Shown one piece after another: positions 749-33,845 of a stretch of 64,000 bases of DNA; position 1 is the stretch's first letter, and each line of letters begins with the position of its first letter. The notes beneath the pieces are model-generated. The model had not been told where the DNA came from. It was given only the letters and a program-made list of their open reading frames with translations, and did no database searches. Both the position numbers and the translations under genes were made by a program. This stretch comes from Myxosarcina sp. GA_180221_E-2-1-MAG-40_15 (GTDB lineage: Bacteria; Cyanobacteriota; Cyanobacteriia; Cyanobacteriales; Xenococcaceae), in assembly GCA_020692205.1 (NCBI GenBank), contig JAIMKV010000002.1:1-64000 (forward strand), given 5' to 3'.

Positions 749-1330
749 ATGTTAAGCACATCTGCTAATTCCTTATCTCTGAATATTGGTAAAAACTCTG
801 ATATTCAGTCTGATTCCAAACAAGTTCGCAAGTTTTTACAGTTTCAGCTAGGTAAATCTCAAAAGATTCATAAATCAATCGTACAAGGTGATATTGCCTT
901 ACTAGATGCGGAAATTGTAACGGAAGTGATTGCTATTTCTCCAGATGATATTTTACCTGTCCCCCAGATGTTTTATTGTGTTTTGGGAATTTATGGTTGG
1001 CGTAGTGAAATGCTGTGGATTGTAGATTTAGAAAACTTGTTAGGATATCCACCACCCCTAGATCAGAATAATCCTCATCAAGAACTATTGGTTATGGTAG
1101 TTCAAGTTCAAGGACAGTCAATCGGACTAGTTGTTTCGGGGATTGATAATTTAATAGAACATAATTTATCAAAGTTTAAATCTTCATCAGCAGAAATATT
1201 TTCCGAAGACATTTTACCATTTTTACATGGATATTTTACGGATTCCAATAACGATATTATTATGCTGATCGATGCCGAGGAAATTTTTAATTTCTTTTCT
1301 ATAAAAACTGAGTTTAACTATTCTCAGTAA
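749..1330 (+). CDS. pixI: CheW-like adaptor protein (PixI/PilI type)
   Basis: A protein of 193 residues with a CheW-like beta-barrel region from about residue 40 to the end. Recognisable elements are VPQMFYCVLGIYGWRSEMLWIVDLENLLG and the later GLVVSGIDNLIE stretch, typical of cyanobacterial PixI proteins. CheW proteins couple receptors to the CheA kinase. The first 40 residues look disordered. It lies 18 bases after pixH and 76 bases before the receptor gene, so the three are probably co-transcribed. The family is clear from gene order and fold signature; the specific partner receptor is inferred to be the adjacent PixJ. Confidence 0.82.
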   Translation: MLSTSANSLSLNIGKNSDIQSDSKQVRKFLQFQLGKSQKIHKSIVQGDIALLDAEIVTEVIAISPDDILPVPQMFYCVLGIYGWRSEMLWIVDLENLLGYPPPLDQNNPHQELLVMVVQVQGQSIGLVVSGIDNLIEHNLSKFKSSSAEIFSEDILPFLHGYFTDSNNDIIMLIDAEEIFNFFSIKTEFNYSQ

Positions 1331-1406
1331 TAAGTAATTGTATGGTTAATTCTGTGGTTTTTAACTAATTATTCGTACCAAATAATCAACAAGTAAAGTA
1401 GATATT

Positions 1407-4400
1407 ATGGATTCATCAAGTACTTATCAAGAGCAAAATTCTCCAAGCGTAGCTACAGAAGTAAATAGCTCAAAATTAGATTTAGTGCAAAAAATTAAAA
1501 AAAGCCTTTATAAGCAAGAGCGCGATCGCCTGTGGAAAATCATGAAACAGGTTCGACAATCCTCAAAACAAGATGACTTTTTCAACAATGCAGTTAAGGT
1601 GGTACAGCATGAATTTAAAGCTGATCGGGTACTGATTTATCGTTTTGACGACGATAATCTGGGTAAAGTTATCGCCGAAGCATTGGTTCCTGGTTGGACT
1701 CCTGGGATGAATGAAACTCTTTCCTGTAGTAGTTTTGGTGGGCAAACAGCAGCTGATTATCAAGCTCAGGAATTTATTGCGATTGAAAATCCCTACGATG
1801 CCAAAGTTACTCCCTATCAAAAGCAGCTTTTTGAGAAATTTCAGGTACAGGCTTCTCTGGCTTTGCCCATTTTACTTGATTCTTTTTCTCCTCAAAGTAA
1901 CGGATATGAGTTAAATCAAGTCTGGGGACTATTAGTAGTTCAACAGTGCGAGCAACCTCGTCAATGGCAAGAAGAAGAAATTAACTTGCTGTCTCAATTG
2001 ACCATTGAATTAACTCGCGTGATGCAGTCATCGCTATTGAGTTTTAAAGCGGAAGGACAACAAGACTTGGTAGCTGCAATGGAGCAGTCTATGGAGCAAT
2101 CGATGAAGGAAAAGCTCCATGAAATACGTCATAATCTCAAGGCAGATCGTGCTTTGGTCTATAGTTTCAATCCCGACGGTAGTGGAGCAATCATAGCTGA
2201 ATCGGTAGATTCAATGTGGAAAAAAGGTGCTAATTCTTTTGATAATGATTGTTTTATCACTCTAGATAACTGTAAAGAGAAGTATGTAGTCGAAGACATC
2301 TATCATCAAAACTCTGCACCTTGTTTGCTCGAACAAATAGAATCTTTAGAAGCTAAAGCTTATATTGTTGTTCCCATTAAATCAGGCGATCGCCTATTAG
2401 GAATGCTGGGAGTGTACCAAAATTTGGGAACTCGTAACTGGCAGGAGTCTGAAGTTGCTTTGATTGTTCGCTCTGCGTCCAAATTTAGTTTTGCTTTAGA
2501 ACAAACTAGCTCGATTCGGGATCTAAGATTTAAAGCTAAACAAGCTGAATTAATTTCTCAACAAGATTTTTTAACTTCTATTAGTCAAAATGCTGAGCAG
2601 ACGATGCAAAGCTGGCTAGATAAAATTCGCGCCTCGATGAAAATAGACCGTGCCGTAGTATTTGCCTTTAATCCCGATTGGAGCGGCAAAATTCTGGCTG
2701 AATCTAAAGGAGAAAAATGGAAACCCGCAGGTTCAGTATTAGATTACGATTTCCACTTTAAAGGCGGGGAATATGAGCCTTGCTATATTGCTAACAATGT
2801 CCAGTCAAAAGGATTAGCTCGTGCGGTGTTAGAAAAATTTGAGCAAATTGAGGCTAAGGCATATATTGTTGTGCCAATTCATGGCAATAATCAATTAATG
2901 GGAGTGTTAGGCGTTTATCAAAACTCTGCTCCTCGTAACTGGCAAGAGTCTGAAGTCAAGCAACTTCAAGAATATGCTGCTCGTTTTGTCCTGCCTTTGC
3001 AGCAAACTGCTTATCTACGAAACTCGGAATTTCAGAGTAAGCAAATGGAACAGGCGTTTAAAAGAGAAAAAGGTCTGTCCAAAATCTTAGAAAAAGTTCG
3101 TTTATCTAAAGACGAGCAAGCTGTGTGGCAAATTGCTACGGACGAAGGGCGTAAAATCCTCGATGTCGATCGGGTATCTATCTATCGCTTTAATCCAGAC
3201 TGGAGTGGTAACTTTGTGGCGGATTCAGCTGCTCCTGGATGGTCTGATCTAACTAAAGTTATTCCTTTTATTGAAGATACTTTTCTACAAAATACGAAAG
3301 GTGGTCGCTATAAAAACGGTGAAACTTTTGCCGTGGAAGATATTTATTTACAAGGACATAAACAATGTCACATTGAACTATTAGAACAGATGGAAGCCAG
3401 AGCTTATGCCCTCGCTCCTATTTTTATTGCTGACAGCAATATGTTTGGCAGCAAAAAACTTTGGGGTTTAATTGGCTGTTATCAAAACGAGGGAGCGCGT
3501 CGTTGGCAGGATTATGAAGTAGAAGCTTTAAGACAACTTGGTTTGCAGGTAGGAGTTGCTATGCAGCAGATTAACTACATGACTAGGTTGGAAAAACAAT
3601 CAGAATTAGAGAAAACCAGCAGCAAAATTAGTGAGCAGATTCGTCGCTCAGAAAACATTGATGAGGTTTTCAAGGTAACGACCCAAGAAATACGTCAGGC
3701 TTTAAAAACAGACCGTACCATTGTCTATCAGTTTAATCCCGACTGGACTGGTCAAGTCGTCGCCGAATCAGTGGCTAGTGGTTGGGTTTCATTACTGGTT
3801 GAACAAACAAATGATGAAGTTCTCAGCGGCGATCGCACTAAAAATAATCGCTGTATTCTCCGTAAGTGGTCAACTGATGACATCACTGAAACCGATACTT
3901 ACATGGAAAAAACCAAAGGCGGTAGGTATACTAGCGAAGGCAAAAAATACACCACAGTAAATGATATTTACACTCAGCAGTTTCCTGAGTGCTACATCAA
4001 ATCATTAGAAAAATATCAGGCAAGAGCTTATATTATTGCGCCTATTTTTCAGGGAGACAAGCTATGGGGTCTATTGGGAGCTTATGAAAACTCAGGTTCT
4101 CGCTCTTGGCTAACCCTAGAAGCAGAGCAAATAGCGCAGTTAGCCAATCAATTAGGTATTGCTATTCAACAAATTGACTATTATGAGCAACTACGGATTC
4201 AGACAGATAACCTAAGCCAAACTTTAGAGCGAGAAAGAGCAGCTAAAGAAGAACTGCAAAAACAGGCGGTAGAAATGCTCAGAACGGTTAGACCAGCATT
4301 CAGCGGAGATTTAACCGTACGCGCCAACGTGACTGAAACCGAAATTGGGACAATTGCTGGAGCTTATAACACTACTCTAGATTCACTTAAGGGAATTGTT

Positions 4401-5240
4401 GAACAGGTTCAAATAGCAGCTTTGCAGGTAACTGAAACTACAGGCGCTAGTAGTTCGGCAATCAAAGGTTTATCTGCCCAATCGGAAAAACAACTGTTAG
4501 AGCTACAAGAAGCATTAGATCGAGTTCAGTCAATGATCGATGCTTCAATGGTAACTACCGAAAATGCCCAGAAAGTAGAGGTAGCAATTGAACAAGCTAA
4601 TAAAACCGTACAAACTGGCGATCGCGCTATGAACAATACCGTAGATAGTATTGCTAGTATCCGCGAAACTGTAGCCGATGCTGGAAAACGAGTCAAACGC
4701 CTAAGTGATTCTTCACAAAAGATTTCTAAGGTAGTTAGTCTGATTAGTAGTTTTGCTACTCAAACTAACCTGCTGGCCTTAAACGCAGCCTTGGAAGCAA
4801 CTCGTGCGGGAGAGTATGGTAAAGGTTTTGCGGTGGTAGCTGATGAAGTTCGTAATCTATCTTTGCAGTCTACTGAAGCGACTATTGAGATTGAAAAGTT
4901 AGTTAGAGAAATTCAAGAAGAGACTCAAGAAGTTTCTGCTGCGATGGAAGCTGGAGTTGTACAGGTAGCCGAAGGAACAAACTTAGTCAATGAAACTCGC
5001 GATAGCTTGAATGAGATTGTCGCTGCCACCGCCGAAATTAAAGATTTGGTGCAGGGAATCACTACTGCTGCCAATGCCCAAACGCGAGAGGCTGCATCTG
5101 TGACTCAGGTAATGGGACAAGTAGCGGAAATTGCTAACGAAACTTCCCAAGATTCGGGTAAGATTTCTCTTTCTTTTGGAGAACTAGAGCAACTAGCTCA
5201 AAAATTACAGGCCAGCGTGTCTCAATTCAAAGTCAAGTAA
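1407..5240 (+). CDS. pixJ: Five-GAF methyl-accepting chemotaxis/phototaxis receptor (PixJ-like)
   Basis: A 1277-residue receptor without a transmembrane segment. Five GAF domains lie at about 58-210, 221-368, 385-535, 567-726 and 745-910, followed by a HAMP-like stretch near 957-1005 and a methyl-accepting signalling domain to the end. The conserved hairpin tip around 1114-1155 contains [20 protein letters not shown]. Repeats such as FNPDWSG mark each GAF. A cysteine at the position that binds the bilin in cyanobacteriochromes occurs in GAF2 (C306), GAF4 (C654, C-H) and GAF5 (C862, C-Y), but not in GAF1 or GAF3. GAF2 has a second Cys (C282 in NDCF) and GAF5 an insert Cys (C816). The layout resembles multi-GAF PixJ/PtxD receptors that steer pilus-driven phototaxis. 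Chromophore binding is inferred. Absence of a membrane anchor differs from PixJ proteins that have one. Confidence 0.9.
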
Positions 5241-5345
5241 GGGTCTGAAAGTCTAACCATAATGGATTCTGGAGTAGAAACTTTCTTTCTATTTCAGGAT
5301 TCAGATTTTATATTACTCAATTATATTTAAGAGAATTATTCGACG

Positions 5346-8300
5346 ATGATTACCGACCCTAGTATTCGCGATCAAGCCTATCAATACTTTTTAGAAGAAG
5401 CTCCCGAATTATTAGAAACCATTGAGCAAGAATTATTTGCGATTAACGATGGTAATATTGAATTAAGCGATCGCCCCTTAAGAGTTAATAAGCTGATGCG
5501 AGCTACCCATACTCTCAAGGGGGGTGCAGCTAATGTGGGGTTGGAAACGATCAAAACCGTCGCTCATTCAATGGAGGATGTGTTTAAAGCTCTTTATAAT
5601 CCTGAATTAGAAATCGATCATCAGACTAAAAAATTACTCTACGCTAGTTATGAATGTCTGAGGATTCCTTTGATGGCTGAATTTAGTAAAGCCCCCATCG
5701 ACCGGGAAGAAATTCTCAATCGTGCTGCGGGTATTTTTGCTAAATTGACGGAAATATTTGGTGATTATCTGAGCGATCAAGATGCTTTTCCTACTTCAGA
5801 AGAATTGGGTTTAGACGTGGTTCAATCCTTTTTTGAATCTGTTGTCCCCGAACGAATTCAGGAGCTGTCCGTGGCCCTGGCAGAAGGTAATCCTGAAATT
5901 ATGACTGAGGTATTGCAATCTCAGGCCGAGATTTTTCTAGGTTTATCACAATCTCTTAATTTATCTGGTTTGGGTGATATTGCTCAAACAATTCTTACCG
6001 CTTTAGAGGCTAATCCCGAACAGGTTAAAGGAATTACTGAAGCAGCGATCGCTAATTTTCAACAGGCACAACAGCAAGTTATGGAGGGCGATCGCGATCG
6101 GGGCGGTGAGCCTTCAATTGAATTACAAAAATTTGCTGGCACAATAGATACAAACGAGGATTTCCCCACGCAGTTTGAGACCGTTGATTCAAGTTTTGTC
6201 GTGGAAGATGCTAATTCTCTGTTTGCCGAGGCAATTAAAGAGGATGAAGACGCTAAGGATATTTTTGGTTCGGAATCTTTAAGCGAAGATTTCACGGAAG
6301 TTACTAGTAGCGTTGAATTAGAGTCTTCTGATGATGCTAATTCATTGTTTGAGGAAGATGAAGACTCTGGAGAATTGATGTCTCAAATTTGGGGCGACGA
6401 TACAGCTATTAATAGCCTTCAAGAACAACCTCTGTCTGGTAAATCTGAAAAAATTGCCAAAGTAGAGGCATTTTTAGTTCCTACACCAGTAAAATCATCA
6501 AAACAAAAAGCTACTCTCCCCCAGGAAATATCTACCAGAGATGTTAGAAAGTCTCGATTTGGTTCCTATATCAAAAGTAAAAGTAGTGATCAACAAACTG
6601 ACAAAGGTAGCAACACCAGCAAAACAGTTAGAGTTAATTTAGAATCTCTAGAAAAACTAAATGATTTAGTCGGAGAATTATTAATCAACCAAAACAGAAA
6701 TATTCTGAAAGATGAGCAGATTGGTCAATTCGTCCAGCAACTACTAGATAAAATTAGCTATAGCGAACAGATAGTTAATGAATTAATTGAAGTTGTCGAT
6801 GACGTTTGTCTCTCACCTCAGCAACAGCGACTCTTACAAGAATTACCGGCCAGACTAAACAATATTACTAAAGCTCGAAATAAAAATTATAAATCTATCT
6901 TACCTGCTTCTACACTACAAAACCCAGAAGATAGACTCAATCAGCTTTTAGAATTAACTACAGTTAGCAATTCCGAACTAGTAAACATCGCCGAAAGAAT
7001 TAAAAATCATAATAAACAAACACGAAGAGATACTCAAAAACAACAGCGAATGCTGTTAAACATGAGAGACGAATTGATTGAAACCAGAATGTCTCCTCTT
7101 GGTAGATTGTTTAATCGGTTTCCTCGTCTACTCAAGCAGCTTTCTGTGACCCATGACAAAAATGCTGAACTGAATATTACGGGCAGCCATATTCTCATTG
7201 ATAAAACCATTGAAGAAAAACTCTACGACCCTCTACTACATTTGGTTCGTAACTCTTTTGATCATGGTTTAGAAAAACCTGGAGAAAGAGCGCAGACTGG
7301 CAAACCTGAAACGGGAACGGTTTTCCTCAGAGCATATTACCAAGGTAGCCAAACCGTAATTGAAGTAGGCGATGATGGAAGAGGAATTAATATTGAGAAA
7401 ATTAAGCAAGCGGGCATTGAAAAAGGATTAATTTCTGCCCAACAAGCAGCTGTCACTCCCCCATCGCAGTTACTTGAATTATTATTTGAACCAGGATTTT
7501 CTACTGCTGATAAACTTAGCGACTTATCTGGTAGAGGCGTGGGAATGGACGTAGTGCGTTCTCAAATTGACGAATTAAACGGCACAATTTCTATTGAGTC
7601 TACTCCTGGCAAAGGTACAACTTTTTCCCTGCAAATTCCTCTCACCTTAACCATCGCCAAATTGATGCTAACTAAGGCTTCGGGAATGACCTATGCCTTG
7701 TTGATTGATGCTATTGAGAGAATTATTCTGCCGACTTCTAAAGAAGTTCAGATCTTTGAAGGACAAAAAATTCTCCATTGGCCGACAAAAGATGATGTGG
7801 AAATGGTTCCAGTGCGTCAGCTATCAAGTATGATTGAGTATCCTCGCACCATTTCTCAGTTAAAAGATTCAGAATCTAGTCTTAACAATCCAATTTTGCT
7901 ACTGCGTCGTCAAAGCGGTTTCATCGGATTAGAGGTGGATAGTGTCTTAGGGGAACAAGAATTAGTCATCAGACCTCTCGGTAGTGCAATTATTCCGCCG
8001 CGATATGTTTATGGCTGTAGCGTCCTTAAAGATAGCAGTCTTACTTTAGTAATTGATGGTGCAGCGTTGCTGAAAGATTCTCAGTATCGCAGCAATACTA
8101 TGAGCCAAAGGGCTTTTCTCGGTGGTACTAGTTTCCAAGCTTTACCCAGCAGTAGTAGTGCTAATACCCAGCAATTGCCTCCTGCTAGTGACTCAATGCC
8201 TCAAACGGTTCTGGTAGTCGATGATTCTAATAGTCTGCGTCGAACTATTGTGATGTCCTTAGAAAAGGTATGTAAGCAGGTACTTCAGGCAGACAATGGG

Positions 8301-8582
8301 ATCGATGCTTTAACCGAACTGAAAAAATCAGGAAAAGTTGAATTTGTAGTTTGTGATTTAGAAATGCCTCTAATGACGGGCTTCCAATTTTTAAAAGCGG
8401 CTAAAAATAATCCTGAATATCAAGATTTACCAGTTATTATTTTAACTTCTCGCGATAGCGATAAACATCGTCAATTAGCTGTAGAACTGGGTGCATCCGC
8501 CTATCTAGTCAAACCCTGTCCCGAACAAGAGCTAATCAGCACGATTACGCAAATTATGCAGTCAAAGATGATCCAACCGTAA
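5346..8582 (+). CDS. pixL: Hybrid CheA-type histidine kinase with C-terminal receiver (PixL-like)
   Basis: A 1078-residue CheA hybrid. The N-terminal Hpt domain (about 1-110) carries the phosphorylated His55 in ATHTLKGGAANVG. A second Hpt-like helical segment near 155-255 lacks the histidine. An acidic linker follows (about 280-350), then the dimerisation region, the HATPase core with LVRNSFDHGLEKPG near residue 636, DDGRGIN and SGRGVGMDV motifs, a CheW-like regulatory domain, and a receiver from about 952 with its Asp in VVCDLEMPL near 1004. CheA kinases read receptor state through CheW and phosphorylate CheY proteins. Here PixJ, PixI and PixH are the likely partners. It is the last gene of the array, 105 bases after pixJ. 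No CheB or CheR is nearby. Confidence 0.9.
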   Translation: MITDPSIRDQAYQYFLEEAPELLETIEQELFAINDGNIELSDRPLRVNKLMRATHTLKGGAANVGLETIKTVAHSMEDVFKALYNPELEIDHQTKKLLYASYECLRIPLMAEFSKAPIDREEILNRAAGIFAKLTEIFGDYLSDQDAFPTSEELGLDVVQSFFESVVPERIQELSVALAEGNPEIMTEVLQSQAEIFLGLSQSLNLSGLGDIAQTILTALEANPEQVKGITEAAIANFQQAQQQVMEGDRDRGGEPSIELQKFAGTIDTNEDFPTQFETVDSSFVVEDANSLFAEAIKEDEDAKDIFGSESLSEDFTEVTSSVELESSDDANSLFEEDEDSGELMSQIWGDDTAINSLQEQPLSGKSEKIAKVEAFLVPTPVKSSKQKATLPQEISTRDVRKSRFGSYIKSKSSDQQTDKGSNTSKTVRVNLESLEKLNDLVGELLINQNRNILKDEQIGQFVQQLLDKISYSEQIVNELIEVVDDVCLSPQQQRLLQELPARLNNITKARNKNYKSILPASTLQNPEDRLNQLLELTTVSNSELVNIAERIKNHNKQTRRDTQKQQRMLLNMRDELIETRMSPLGRLFNRFPRLLKQLSVTHDKNAELNITGSHILIDKTIEEKLYDPLLHLVRNSFDHGLEKPGERAQTGKPETGTVFLRAYYQGSQTVIEVGDDGRGINIEKIKQAGIEKGLISAQQAAVTPPSQLLELLFEPGFSTADKLSDLSGRGVGMDVVRSQIDELNGTISIESTPGKGTTFSLQIPLTLTIAKLMLTKASGMTYALLIDAIERIILPTSKEVQIFEGQKILHWPTKDDVEMVPVRQLSSMIEYPRTISQLKDSESSLNNPILLLRRQSGFIGLEVDSVLGEQELVIRPLGSAIIPPRYVYGCSVLKDSSLTLVIDGAALLKDSQYRSNTMSQRAFLGGTSFQALPSSSSANTQQLPPASDSMPQTVLVVDDSNSLRRTIVMSLEKVCKQVLQADNGIDALTELKKSGKVEFVVCDLEMPLMTGFQFLKAAKNNPEYQDLPVIILTSRDSDKHRQLAVELGASAYLVKPCPEQELISTITQIMQSKMIQP

Positions 8583-18475: not shown

Positions 18476-20872
18476 TTAAAGAGCAGATAATTTAGTTGGT
18501 TGACTTTTTTTGAGCCAAGTAAAACAGAAAGTAGCACCTTCTCCTAACTTAGACTTAATCATAATTTGTCCACCCTGATTTTCCACTGCTTTTTTGACTA
18601 TTGCTAACCCGATTCCCGTATTTTCTTTGGTATCTCTAGATTCTAAAGTTTGAAAGATCGTAAAAATTTTCTTGTGGTATTTGGGATCGATCCCTTTACC
18701 GTTATCAGCTACAGAAAACTCATAATAATTGGCTCGTTCGATTACCGAAATGGTAATTTTGCCCATAAGACTATTACTATGTTTGATGGCATTACTAATC
18801 AAGTTATGAAACACTTGCTGTAAAGGAACTGCATCAGTAATAAAAGTAGGCATTTCTCCTTGAATTTCAATTTGAAAATGTTCGGGAACATCCAATAAAT
18901 CAATGATATCTGCCAGCATTTTGCTGACTGACACCTGTGCTAAATCGGATTTTAGTCTGCCAACGCGAGAATAAGTCAGCAAAGCGTTAATTAAATTTTC
19001 TAAACGATGGACTCTACCCCGTAATAGATTCATATTGTAATGAGTATCCTCGTCCATCTTGTCGGCTAAATCTTCCTCAATCCACTCAGAAAGATTAGCG
19101 ATCGCCCTTAGCGGTGCTTTGAGATCGTGAGAAGTAACGTAGGCAAATTGATCTAACTCTTGGTTGCGTTGTTCTAGCTGTCTTGCTGTTGCTAACAACA
19201 TCATATTTAGTTGTTCTAGCTGGGCAGTACGCTGTTTAACTCTGGCTTCTAATTCGCGATTTAGTTTGGCAACTTCTTGTTCGGCTTTTTTTCTCTCGGT
19301 GACATCTTGTATTGCCACCACCGCACCTAATTTGACTCCATTACCGTCAATGATTGGACTACCGTTAGTCATCAGAGTACGAGCTTTTCCCTGGTGCGGA
19401 ATTACCATCAGTTCTGTATTGGTAAATGACTCCCCTGAAAAGGCTCTAAACAAGGGAATATCTTTTTGCTCAAGCAAATGCTTGCCTTCAGCATCATAGA
19501 GGTTGTAATGTTCCGCCCACTGATCGGCAGGTATGCCTGGCTGAGGAAGTCCGTGAAACTTGACAATAGCTTGATTAAATAAGACCAAATTGCCATGTTG
19601 ATCGCAGGCAATAATACCAATACCATCGGCAAGATTATTAAGTAAAGTTTTAATAAATATTCTTTCGCGCTCTAATTCTACTTCTGTCTCTTTACGTTCG
19701 GTGATGTCTCTCATCGCTACAATTGCCCCAATTTTTTCCCCCTGACTATTGATAATTGGATTGCCGTTAGCCAGTAAAATACGGGCTTTTCCTTGTTTGG
19801 GGATAATTTTCATCTCGACATCCCTAACTAATTCTCCTGTCAAAGCCCGAAATAGGGGAATATCTTCTGGAGACATTTTGGTTTGACCATCAGGCAAATA
19901 AAGATCGTAGTGTTCTGCCCACTTATCAGCAGGTATAGCAGACTCTGGTAGTCCATGAAACTCTCGAGTAGCCCGATTAAACAGGGTGATTATTCCATGG
20001 CGATCGCAGGATACAATGCCATCAGATAAGTTATCTAGTAATGCCTGAAGAAATTGTTTGTCTTGATCTAATTCTATTTCTACTTGTTTGCGATCGCTAA
20101 TATTAAGACTAGTACCGACTAAGCGAGATATATTTCCTGCTTCATCTTTAATCGGATTGAGATTAGTCAACCACCAGGTATCTTGATCCTGAAAAGGCAG
20201 ACATTCTTCATAGGTAATAGCTGTTGCTGTCTGAAGACATTCTGTATAACGACGCTCAACTGCTGCTGTGGCTTCAAAAGACATAATTTGTGCCGGGGTT
20301 TTCCCTACTACATCGCTTATTCCTGTTAACCTGATTGCCGCAGGATTAAACCCTTGATAGCGAAACGTCCCATCTAATTCGACTTCAATCACAAAAATTG
20401 CTTCTTGGACATGGTCGTAGATGGTACGCAAAAATTCTTCTTGTTGGCGAATAATCGCTTTTTGCTGCTCTAGTTCGCTAATTTTCGCTTGTAGCTGTTG
20501 ATTAATATCATTTACTTGGGTTGGAGAAGGTAAGGTAAGAATTTCGGGAATTTTATCAATTAAAGCGATCGCTGTTGCTAAGGAAACTAACGCCGTCAAT
20601 AATTTAATCCAACTTGATAGCCAGTAGTTTGGATGCCACAGCGTCCAAATATCAATAGTATGACCAGCACCACAAAATAAGATAAACGCAGCAAATAACC
20701 AAAATATGCCATTAAAAGGAATATCCCCGCGTTTGCGTAGTATGTAAATTAAAGTTATCGGAATAGAAAAATAGGCTAAAGCAATTGCCCCATTGCTCAC
20801 CAAATGTAACCCGACTAACCAGGGTTTCCATAGATAGCACATTCCATGAGGCATAAAAGAAAAAATTGCCAT
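18476..20872 (-). CDS. Ethylene-receptor-like sensor histidine kinase with three PAS domains
   Basis: A 798-residue kinase from the ATG at 20872; an in-frame TTG at 20887 is an alternative start. The N-terminus (about 1-105) has three membrane helices that align without gaps to the ethylene-binding domain of plant ETR1: IALAYFSIP with Y34, and CGAGHTIDIW with the copper-ligand pair C67 and H71. The ETR1 Asp25 position is N27 here. Three PAS domains follow (about 146-265, 272-395, 402-525); the second and third are near-duplicates sharing IPADxWAEHY and DIPLFRA. A coiled coil leads to the HisKA domain with H582 in TSHDLKAPLRA and an ATPase domain to about 795. Cyanobacterial homologues such as Synechocystis Slr1212 bind ethylene. 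Binding here is inferred and doubtful because of N27. It is divergent from a NarL-type regulator. Confidence 0.88.
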   Translation of the reverse strand: MAIFSFMPHGMCYLWKPWLVGLHLVSNGAIALAYFSIPITLIYILRKRGDIPFNGIFWLFAAFILFCGAGHTIDIWTLWHPNYWLSSWIKLLTALVSLATAIALIDKIPEILTLPSPTQVNDINQQLQAKISELEQQKAIIRQQEEFLRTIYDHVQEAIFVIEVELDGTFRYQGFNPAAIRLTGISDVVGKTPAQIMSFEATAAVERRYTECLQTATAITYEECLPFQDQDTWWLTNLNPIKDEAGNISRLVGTSLNISDRKQVEIELDQDKQFLQALLDNLSDGIVSCDRHGIITLFNRATREFHGLPESAIPADKWAEHYDLYLPDGQTKMSPEDIPLFRALTGELVRDVEMKIIPKQGKARILLANGNPIINSQGEKIGAIVAMRDITERKETEVELERERIFIKTLLNNLADGIGIIACDQHGNLVLFNQAIVKFHGLPQPGIPADQWAEHYNLYDAEGKHLLEQKDIPLFRAFSGESFTNTELMVIPHQGKARTLMTNGSPIIDGNGVKLGAVVAIQDVTERKKAEQEVAKLNRELEARVKQRTAQLEQLNMMLLATARQLEQRNQELDQFAYVTSHDLKAPLRAIANLSEWIEEDLADKMDEDTHYNMNLLRGRVHRLENLINALLTYSRVGRLKSDLAQVSVSKMLADIIDLLDVPEHFQIEIQGEMPTFITDAVPLQQVFHNLISNAIKHSNSLMGKITISVIERANYYEFSVADNGKGIDPKYHKKIFTIFQTLESRDTKENTGIGLAIVKKAVENQGGQIMIKSKLGEGATFCFTWLKKSQPTKLSAL

Positions 20873-21181
20873 TCCAACTGTTACCAAAATATTGCTTAAT
20901 TATCGCTCGGTTGAAAATTTGTGTTTAATCAATTGAAAATATTGTTAAACAATATATATTGTCAGACATACAATGGTGATTAATCAAATTATTACTGGTA
21001 GGTAATCTACCTCAAGGTAGATGATTATAATAAATTAAACTCAATATTTGCCAAAAACGATTCGAGTTGATTTTCGGCTTGTATTAAGATATACATCTTA
21101 AGGCTGATGGAATCAGCAAAGTGATATTAGATAGTTTTAAAGGGTGAATAATTATTTTAATTAGTAATTTTATATTTGGTA

Positions 21182-21934
21182 ATGAGCAAAATCAACGTCG
21201 TTTTAATTGAAGACCATGATCTAAGCCGAATTGGTTTATGTGCTGCACTAAAGCAATATCAGGACATTGAGATCGTGGATAATGCCGCCAATGGAAACGA
21301 TGGATTGAAAAAAATTAAAACTCATCAGCCAGATGTTGCCTTAGTTGATATTGGGTTACCTGATATTGACGGCATTGAGGTGACTCAGAAATTAAAGAGC
21401 TATCAGTTAGAAAATCCAGGTTTTGAGACTAAGGTTCTGATGCTCACGATGCACGATAGCGAAGATTCGGTGCTTGCTGCTTTTGCTGCTGGAGCTGATT
21501 CTTACAGCCTTAAGGATGTTAGTATGGATAATCTGGTTCAGGCAATTCGCAACACTCATGAAGGGAATGCCTGGATCGATCCAGCGATCGCTCGTATTGT
21601 TCTCAAACAGGCTCAAAATACTAAAGCGGTTGCCTCGACTATAAAGCAGTTGGATGTTTCAACTCCTGTTGAGCAAGATAAAGCAGATACTCAGGCTATT
21701 ACTGCTGTAGCAGGTGAATATCAGCAGTTAATTGAAACCTACCCGTTAACTGATCGAGAACTTGAAGTTTTAGAGTTAATTGTGGCTGGCTGTAGCAATG
21801 CCGAAATAGCTAAAAAGCTGTATATAACTGTGGGAACGGTTAAAACTCACGTTTGCCATATTCTCAATAAGTTGTGTGCTGATGATCGTACTCAGGCTGC
21901 GGTAAGAGCCTTGAGAGCAGGATTAGTCAAATAG
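21182..21934 (+). CDS. NarL/LuxR-family response regulator
   Basis: A 250-residue two-domain regulator. The receiver has E10-D11 and the phosphoacceptor D56 in LVDIGLPDIDG. An alanine/threonine-rich linker leads to a C-terminal LuxR-type helix-turn-helix with LTDRELEVLELIVAGCSNAEIA (read in two parts) and VGTVKTHVCHILNKL. The ATG at 21182 is used; a TTG two codons upstream adds nothing. It is divergent from the ethylene-receptor-like kinase with about 310 bases between starts, which suggests but does not prove that they form a pair. The kinase has no receiver of its own, which fits a separate partner. Target genes are unknown. Confidence 0.9.
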   Translation: MSKINVVLIEDHDLSRIGLCAALKQYQDIEIVDNAANGNDGLKKIKTHQPDVALVDIGLPDIDGIEVTQKLKSYQLENPGFETKVLMLTMHDSEDSVLAAFAAGADSYSLKDVSMDNLVQAIRNTHEGNAWIDPAIARIVLKQAQNTKAVASTIKQLDVSTPVEQDKADTQAITAVAGEYQQLIETYPLTDRELEVLELIVAGCSNAEIAKKLYITVGTVKTHVCHILNKLCADDRTQAAVRALRAGLVK

Positions 21935-22029: not shown

Positions 22030-22431
22030 CTAATAAATATTTTTGCTCTTCGGAATACTATTAGGGTTACGCACTTGAGGAATATCGCTTAAAACAGCAA
22101 TAATTCCAGTACGTCCAGTGGTTAAAGTAAAGTCACTTAAAAAATCGACTATTTCTACTTGAATAATTTTTTCAATTAACTGTCTTAGTTCTAGTTGAAT
22201 AGCATTATCTAAACCAGAACGGATTTTTTCTGCTAAATCAAGCTTTCCCCCCTCAATCAAAATCTTTTCGGCGTTAGTAATTGAATCTTCAATAATTATT
22301 GCCAGTTTGGCATCAAAAATTTGACAAATTACTTTTGCAGGTCGATGTCCTAAATAATGACGATAAAATGATTGAATTTCTTGCGATAGTTTTCTTTCTA
22401 ATTGTCCGCGAGTACATAAATTTTCGGTCAT
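22030..22431 (-). CDS. DUF2294 family protein
   Basis: A soluble protein of 133 residues matching the DUF2294 pattern: an N-terminal QEIQSFYRHYLGHRPAKVICQI stretch (read in parts), a hydrophobic strand KLAIIIEDSITNAEK, a central helix and a C-terminal strand region ending at IIAVLSDIP. The family is common in cyanobacteria and firmicutes and has no settled biochemical role. The ATG is at 22431. The gene stands alone, with the NarL regulator converging on it and an 807-base gap upstream. I infer no function. Confidence 0.78.
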   Translation of the reverse strand: MTENLCTRGQLERKLSQEIQSFYRHYLGHRPAKVICQIFDAKLAIIIEDSITNAEKILIEGGKLDLAEKIRSGLDNAIQLELRQLIEKIIQVEIVDFLSDFTLTTGRTGIIAVLSDIPQVRNPNSIPKSKNIY

Positions 22432-32498: not shown

Positions 32499-32606
32499 AT
32501 GGTAAAAATTGTCAGTCGTCAATTACTAGGTAAACAAGCTGTATATGATATTGGCTTAGCCCAGGATCATAATTTTTTGTTGGCTAACGGTATGGTGGCA
32601 TCTAAC
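32499..32606 (+). other. C-terminal fragment of the DnaE split intein
   Basis: The first 36 residues of the dnaE-C product are a DnaE split-intein C-fragment: [20 protein letters not shown] followed by [16 protein letters not shown]. It has the HNF block and the C-terminal Asn, then the extein Cys-Phe-Asn. The fragment joins with an N-fragment encoded elsewhere to splice the two DnaE halves together. Length and motifs match the known Ssp and Npu DnaE C-inteins. Confidence 0.96.
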
Positions 32607-33845
32607 TGTTTTAATAAGTCGCATTCTACTGCTTATGCTTATGTAACTTATCAAACTGCATATCTCAAGGCTAATTATCCTGTTGAATATATGTCCGCCT
32701 TGCTCACTGCTAGCAGCGGCATTCAGGACAAAGTTGATCGCTATCGGGAAAATGCTCAAAAAATGGGCATAGTCATCTTGCCTCCTGATGTCAACCGTTC
32801 CGTTGAAGACTTTTTACCCTTAGACGACAACCATATTCTGTTTGGTTTATCAGCGGTTAAAAACCTGGGGCAGGGCGCAATTGAAAATATTCTCAGTGCC
32901 AGAGATACTGATGGTGAATTCAAATCTCTAGCAGATTTTTGTGAACGGGTAGAATTACGCACCGTTAACCGTAGAGCTTTGGAAACTTTGATTTATTGTG
33001 GTGCTTTTGACTTAATACAGTCCAACCGCAGACAGTTAATCAACGACATTGATGTGATTATCCCTTGGGCACAACAACGCAGCAAAGAGAAAGCCAGTGG
33101 TCAACTTAATTTATTTGACATGATGGGCGGTATGGCAGAGCAAGAGGAGTCTCAGGATCTTTTTGAACAAGCACCTAATACTCCTGCTGTAGCAGATTAT
33201 CCTCTCCCAGAAAAACTGCGCTTAGAAAAGGAATACATTGGTTTTTACATCAGCGATCATCCCCTCAAATCGATTCATCAAGCAGCACAAATCTTATCCC
33301 CAATTAACTTAAGTACTTTATCTGAACAAAAAGCCAGACAGAAAATTAGTGCGGTAGTAATGTTAAATTCAGTCAGGAAAATTATTACCAAAAAAGGTGA
33401 TCCGATGGCTTTTGTGCAGATGGAAGACATTACAGGAGAAGCGGAGGGAACAATTTTTCCTAGCACCTATCAAAAATTAGAATTACTATTACAAGAAGGC
33501 AAGCAATTGATTGTTTGGGGGCAGGCGCAACAGCGAAATGAAAAATATCAGCTAATTATTGATGATGCTGAAGCGATAGAACAGGTAAAAATGCTGATGT
33601 TAGAAATTACCCTAGAACAGGCTTTAAATCAGGTAAAAAGTAATTATTTAAAAAGAATTTTGGAACAGCAGTCTGTTGAACAGAATAAATTTAAAATTCC
33701 CGTAATTGCAGCTATTGGTCAAGGAGAGCAAAGACAATTTATTCGCTTTGGACAAAAATTTTGGGTGCAGAATGAAATAGAAGCGATCGCTTCTTTAAAA
33801 GAGGCAGGATTTGTGGCTCACTGTGAATCATTACTACCTCAATAA
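32499..33845 (+). CDS. dnaE: DNA polymerase III alpha subunit, C-terminal half (split, intein-processed)
   Basis: The product has 448 residues: a 36-residue intein C-fragment and about 412 residues of DnaE. The extein begins [20 protein letters not shown], which is the polymerase domain after the conserved splice point. It continues through the helix-hairpin-helix region ([20 protein letters not shown]-like) and an OB fold ([29 protein letters not shown] in parts) to the C-terminus. The N-terminal half with the catalytic aspartates must be encoded elsewhere. Cyanobacteria split dnaE in this way, and protein trans-splicing gives the full replicase subunit. The ATG at 32499 is the intein start. 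Divergent from hflX. Confidence 0.96.

Follow-up and report, generated by a model that had tools for sequence, protein, structure and literature searches.

Within the 64,000-nucleotide stretch of Myxosarcina sp. DNA analysed here (the window), positions 18476–20872 of the minus strand hold an intact open reading frame for a sensor kinase of 798 residues with the arrangement EBD-PAS-PAS-PAS-HisKA-HATPase, where EBD denotes the ethylene-binding domain. The protein is read from an ATG at 20872, and a TTG at 20887, five codons 5' of this ATG, is a possible alternative start. The EBD, a three-helix membrane domain (ETR1_N, Pfam PF25487), covers residues 19–114 (20531–20818, minus strand, as for all receptor features below) and matches its family with an E-value of 9.8e-39 and a score of 132 bits, the family cut-off being 27; ETR1_N matches were absent from all 14 control genomes. 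Three PAS domains follow: residues 153–263 (20084–20416, PAS_4 in Pfam), residues 274–390 (19703–20053, PAS in Pfam) and a third at approximately 19289–19660, which is a second PAS-match stretch whose limits we set by eye from the repeat of the second domain. Pfam also detects both parts of a histidine kinase output, namely a HisKA dimerisation/phospho-acceptor domain with an SHDLKAPL motif (residues 573–637, 18962–19156) and an HATPase_c catalytic domain (residues 680–788, 18509–18835). A NarL/LuxR-type response regulator gene, a candidate partner, lies divergently on the plus strand at 21176–21934.

An AF2 prediction of the EBD (mean pLDDT 86.7) has helices at residues 17–47, 54–79 and 83–113. 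Read for helix assignment only, it places N27 in helix 1, C67, H71 and D74 in helix 2, and K90 in helix 3, so that the EBD is predicted to consist of three transmembrane helices with the copper ligands in the second. A search by sequence returned no solved structure of a relative, and the best hit of a fold search had an E-value of 0.73. A review states that no high-resolution structure of an ethylene receptor sensor domain exists, and that the AlphaFold model of ETR1 agrees only partly with EPR data (PMC13012798).

We aligned the receptor to the ETR1 sequence, in which D25, Y32, I35, P36, I62, C65, H69 and K91 fit the published numbering. Gaps are confined to the N-terminus and to three residues in the loop after helix 2, which bears out the gap-free match over helices 1 and 2 claimed by a previous, sequence-only reading of this DNA. 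The AAT codon at 20792–20794 encodes Asn27 in helix 1, at the position of ETR1 Asp25, as that reading had proposed. It was also right that the copper ligands Cys67 (C65 of ETR1; 20672–20674) and His71 (H69; 20660–20662), both in helix 2, are kept, together with Tyr34 (Y32; 20771–20773) and the Ile-Pro residues I37 (I35) and P38 (P36); I64 (I62) likewise matches ETR1. Asp74 (20651–20653), one turn past His71, occupies the ETR1 N72 position according to the sequence and the column tables, and Lys90 (20603–20605) in helix 3 occupies that of K91, a position that covaries with position 25 in our alignment. ETR1 requires seven residues for ethylene binding (PMC6682694). Six of them are kept in the receptor, the exception being the change of Asp25 to Asn27.

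Two trivial origins of the Asn were rejected. It is not a sequencing error, since it recurs in a 93%-identical relative (L032) and in others. Misalignment past another helix-1 Asp was also ruled out: the receptor has no acidic residue elsewhere in helix 1, and a helix-1 acid is present in none of the Asn-type domains collected.

Distribution of Asn at position 25

The sequence-only reading had raised the question of how common Asn is at this position (ETR1 numbering is used from here on for alignment positions). We gathered ETR1_N domains in draws over three groups, namely the receptor's own family, its phylum and the Pseudomonadota (the phylum of Methyloversatilis), and by scanning named genomes; the whole-genome relatives include Xenococcaceae, Hyellaceae, Waterburya and Pleurocapsa records. 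Among the 277 distinct domains collected, position 25 is Asp in 238 and Asn in 30. Asp25 is required for binding at high affinity but, as Asn variants occur, is not a defining feature of the bacterial ethylene receptor family. The named-genome scan is biased to close relatives, so we also give frequencies for the genome draws alone. Among the matches listed, Asn accounts for 14 of the 43 domains with Asp or Asn in the own-family draw, for 12 of 144 in the rest of the Cyanobacteria and for 0 of 26 in the Pseudomonadota, the proteobacterial Asn examples (e.g. L246 and L247) coming from the biased scan only. Asn at position 25 is thus a minority state that is enriched in the receptor's own family.

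The copper site does not erode with this change. Both C65 and H69 are kept in 27 of the 30 Asn-type domains and in 217 of the 238 Asp-type domains (Fisher p=0.74). In a tree of the nearest relatives, built without the two trait columns, the receptor's 12-member orthologue clade (support 100/98) contains interleaved Asn and Asp sequences, and sisters on starred branches differ at this residue, with Asp in L069 next to Asn in L070, and Asp in L020 next to Asn in L023 and L024; all five retain C65 and H69. An independent-pairs sign test restricted to supported branches of a poorly resolved tree of about 155 columns had too few pairs for significance. The EBD is under purifying selection, with dN 0.031 and dS 0.144 between the receptor and L032. 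Taken from these alignments, the alternation of Asp and Asn looks like that of an adjustable site and bears no sign of domain decay. As a separate observation, one Asn-type receptor (L027, genome G016) combines Asn25 with Tyr65 and Tyr69 and has neither copper ligand.

The genome encodes one other ETR1_N protein, on contig 40 (L003:5207-7243), with the arrangement EBD-PAS-GAF-GGDEF of a diguanylate cyclase. Its EBD keeps Asp25, but the copper ligand C65 is replaced by Tyr and P36 by Ser. The Cys65-to-Tyr change is that of etr1-1, which abolishes binding in Arabidopsis. Owing to this Tyr, the receptor in the window is the genome's sole one with both copper ligands. Four of the 12 family genomes with an Asn-type receptor, this one included, have no Asp-type two-ligand receptor that we could find, and in G018, G025 and G026 the search yielded no ETR1_N protein besides the Asn-type receptor. 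The other eight genomes have an Asn-type beside an Asp-type receptor, and such coexisting receptors could cover two ethylene ranges.

Coupling of positions 25, 91 and 72

Position 25 is coupled to position 91. The pair ranks third of 3664 by MI-APC, each position being the other's best partner, and it came first of 62 columns in a tree-corrected test of correlated change (LR 35.2, p 4e-7 by chi-square; LR 11.6 for the runner-up column), on a poorly resolved tree of about 155 columns. A residue other than Lys stands at position 91 in 22 of the 30 Asn-type domains, the other eight having Lys, compared with 38 of 238 Asp-type domains. In the fitted rates, Asp changes to Asn faster if position 91 is not Lys, and Lys is lost quickly once Asn is present. 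A polar bond between D25 and K91 has been predicted (PMC11819568), and the coupling adds evidence from natural variation for this model-proposed bridge, with position 72 as a further partner that can be tested.

Position 72 was picked after the column tables had suggested it and was then compared with 50 control columns. Asp occurs there in 25 of 30 Asn-type and 63 of 237 Asp-type domains, and any acid in 27 of 30 and 159 of 237, respectively; 37 of the 38 domains with Arg91 have Asp72. The tree-corrected association of Asn25 with Asp72 (LR 18.3) exceeds the maximum among the control columns (13.2), and that of Arg91 with Asp72 reaches an LR of 30.0. One reading offered by these tables is that, where helix 1 lacks an acid, one in helix 2 can serve as partner for the positively charged helix-3 residue.

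The state of the receptor in these terms is N25-D72-K91 (N27-D74-K90 in its own numbering). The Xenococcaceae/Hyellaceae orthologues L196, L198, L199, L201 and L203 share its Asn25, C65 and H69 but have Arg at position 91 in place of its Lys; L196 and L199 are of the same receptor-kinase type, and a NarL-type regulator lies alongside in L196, L198 and L199. Within this close clade, Lys at position 91 is limited to the receptor and L032. The two represent a rare Asn/Lys state, with the same 25/91 pair as engineered ETR1 D25N. We tentatively suggest, as a possibility that we hold with less than even confidence, that evolution has rewired a polar network of three residues (25, 72 and 91). When Asp25 becomes Asn, the helix-3 residue would change from Lys to Arg or others, and the helix-2 Asp beside the copper ligands would serve as its new partner, giving a distinct receptor class with altered affinity or signalling. 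The receptor studied here would then be a rare N25-D72-K91 state of this class, in a cell that has no other receptor with an intact pair of copper ligands.

Affinity and function of the Asn-type receptor

The account that we consider probable is that the protein is a cyanobacterial-type, copper-dependent ethylene receptor kinase, a natural Asn25 variant with altered, probably lower, affinity. It draws on what can be read from the sequences, namely the family assignment, Asn25, the Cys and His ligands, the predicted three-helix layout, an intact kinase, the repeated switching between Asp and Asn, and the 25-91-72 coupling. On this account, Cu(I) would sit on C67 and H71 and ethylene would bind there. 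Lacking the Asp carboxylate, the site would bind ethylene more weakly, by analogy with ETR1 D25N, for which the roughly 100-fold figure is that of a plant receptor. K90 at the 91 position would pair mainly with Asp74 and less with position 25, and ethylene binding would alter helix packing and, through the PAS domains, kinase output.

Arabidopsis ETR1 D25N has, like the receptor, a three-helix Cu(I)/ethylene domain with Asn25 and Lys91, whereas the receptor is a natural bacterial variant with Asp at the N72 position and PAS in place of GAF, and is without a receiver domain. ETR1 D25N is reported to be functional, its affinity being about 100-fold lower, and natural variants are said to exist (PMC13012798, citing Azhar 2023 and Aman 2025). 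The sequence-only reading had taken Asp25 to be needed for binding, which holds for loss-of-function changes (PMC11819568) but not for the change from Asp to Asn. It had also left three outcomes side by side; among these, tuned affinity is now best supported, through the reportedly functional, about 100-fold weaker ETR1 variant (PMC13012798), and lost binding is disfavoured by the kept ligands, the toggling between Asp and Asn, and purifying selection. The coupled positions 91 and 72, which that reading had no means of seeing, carry more weight than the exchange at position 25 by itself. The functionality of D25N and the existence of natural Asn variants are already published (PMC13012798), which limits the surprise of the present variant. 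Three observations may be new: the tree-corrected coupling of position 25 with 91 and 72, the switching between Asp and Asn within one orthologue group, and the etr1-1 change in the genome's other receptor.

Ethylene at nL per L elicits responses in cyanobacteria, whose receptors bind it with plant-like affinity; binding has been demonstrated for SynEtr1 and for Geitlerinema cells (PMC6682694). SynEtr1 (Slr1212, compared by description) and the Geitlerinema receptors GeiEtr1 and GeiEtr2 are, like the receptor, cyanobacterial EBD sensor kinases; in GeiEtr1 and GeiEtr2 none of the seven required residues is changed, unlike in the receptor with its Asn at position 25. Natural Asn-type receptors, making up about one-third of the domains in one cyanobacterial family and switching among close orthologues, are ready-made test cases for how ethylene receptors attain their high affinity and transmit the signal through the membrane.

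A less likely alternative is that Asp74 has assumed the role of Asp25, leaving affinity near normal and Asn27 functionally neutral. The enrichment of Asp72 among both Asn-type and Arg91 domains, with its tree-corrected support, speaks for such compensation, and the toggling among orthologues is equally compatible with neutrality. However, about two-thirds of Asp-type receptors already have an acid at 72 beside Asp25, so that this acid is not simply a replacement. The lowered affinity of ETR1 D25N also argues against compensation, though ETR1 has Asn at position 72.

That ethylene binding has been lost, with the kinase driven by its PAS domains or persisting as a remnant, seems to us improbable. 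Asp25 is among the residues required in ETR1 (PMC11819568, PMC6682694), the gene no longer has its response-regulator neighbours, and in the second EBD of the genome one copper ligand is replaced. Against this, the copper ligands and the residues at Y32, I35, P36 and I62 are all kept, ligand loss is not in excess among Asn-type domains, the EBD is under purifying selection, and ETR1 D25N is reported as functional (PMC13012798). Finally, the copper site could sense another alkene, CO or the like, with Asn selecting it, as Cu(I) can bind small molecules besides ethylene; this we regard as very improbable, positive evidence for it being nil, the site-lining residues other than 25 being those of ethylene receptors, and Asp-bearing close orthologues existing.

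Response regulators and flanking genes

In our favoured account of a lower-affinity ethylene receptor, the phosphate would pass either to an Rcp1-like regulator encoded elsewhere in the genome or to the NarL-type regulator beside the receptor gene. The latter is 88% identical to its counterpart in L196 and adjoins the receptor gene in five close relatives. Downstream of the receptor gene in L196, L198 and L199 lie an Rcp1-like response regulator and, in addition, one or two genes with receiver domains, and an Rcp1-like regulator also accompanies the receptor in L204–L206. In the genome studied here, a citrate synthase gene (named from its sequence) follows the receptor, and the regulator module, comprising an Rcp1-like regulator and two receiver-kinase genes, lies apart on contig 8 (L304:3844-6744), with identities to L196 of 86.7% for the regulator and 70% for the receiver-kinase. 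Since the receptor and the contig 8 module are both contig-internal, their separation is not an assembly break. AzoEtr1 of Azospirillum brasilense is likewise a bacterial ethylene receptor kinase, with an adjoining response regulator gene (PMC11819568). It has Asp35 and Lys98 at the coupled positions and its regulator directly downstream, whereas the downstream module of the receptor described here is split off.

Additional features of the window were noted alongside. An MpsC-family gene (PF10057) at 22030–22431 lies near the NarL-type regulator, and in L196 and L202 look-alikes, recognised by eye, occur close to the receptor gene. Positions 749–8582, some 10 kb from the receptor, encode a chemosensory cluster of the phototaxis type, made up of CheW, a methyl-accepting chemotaxis protein (MCP) containing five GAF domains, and a CheA-receiver protein; by eye, the MCP has a GAF Cys motif as in bilin-binding GAFs. 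At 32499–33845, a C-terminal part of DNA polymerase III alpha (Pfam) is preceded by a C-intein-like sequence, seen by eye, that recalls the split DnaE inteins of cyanobacteria.
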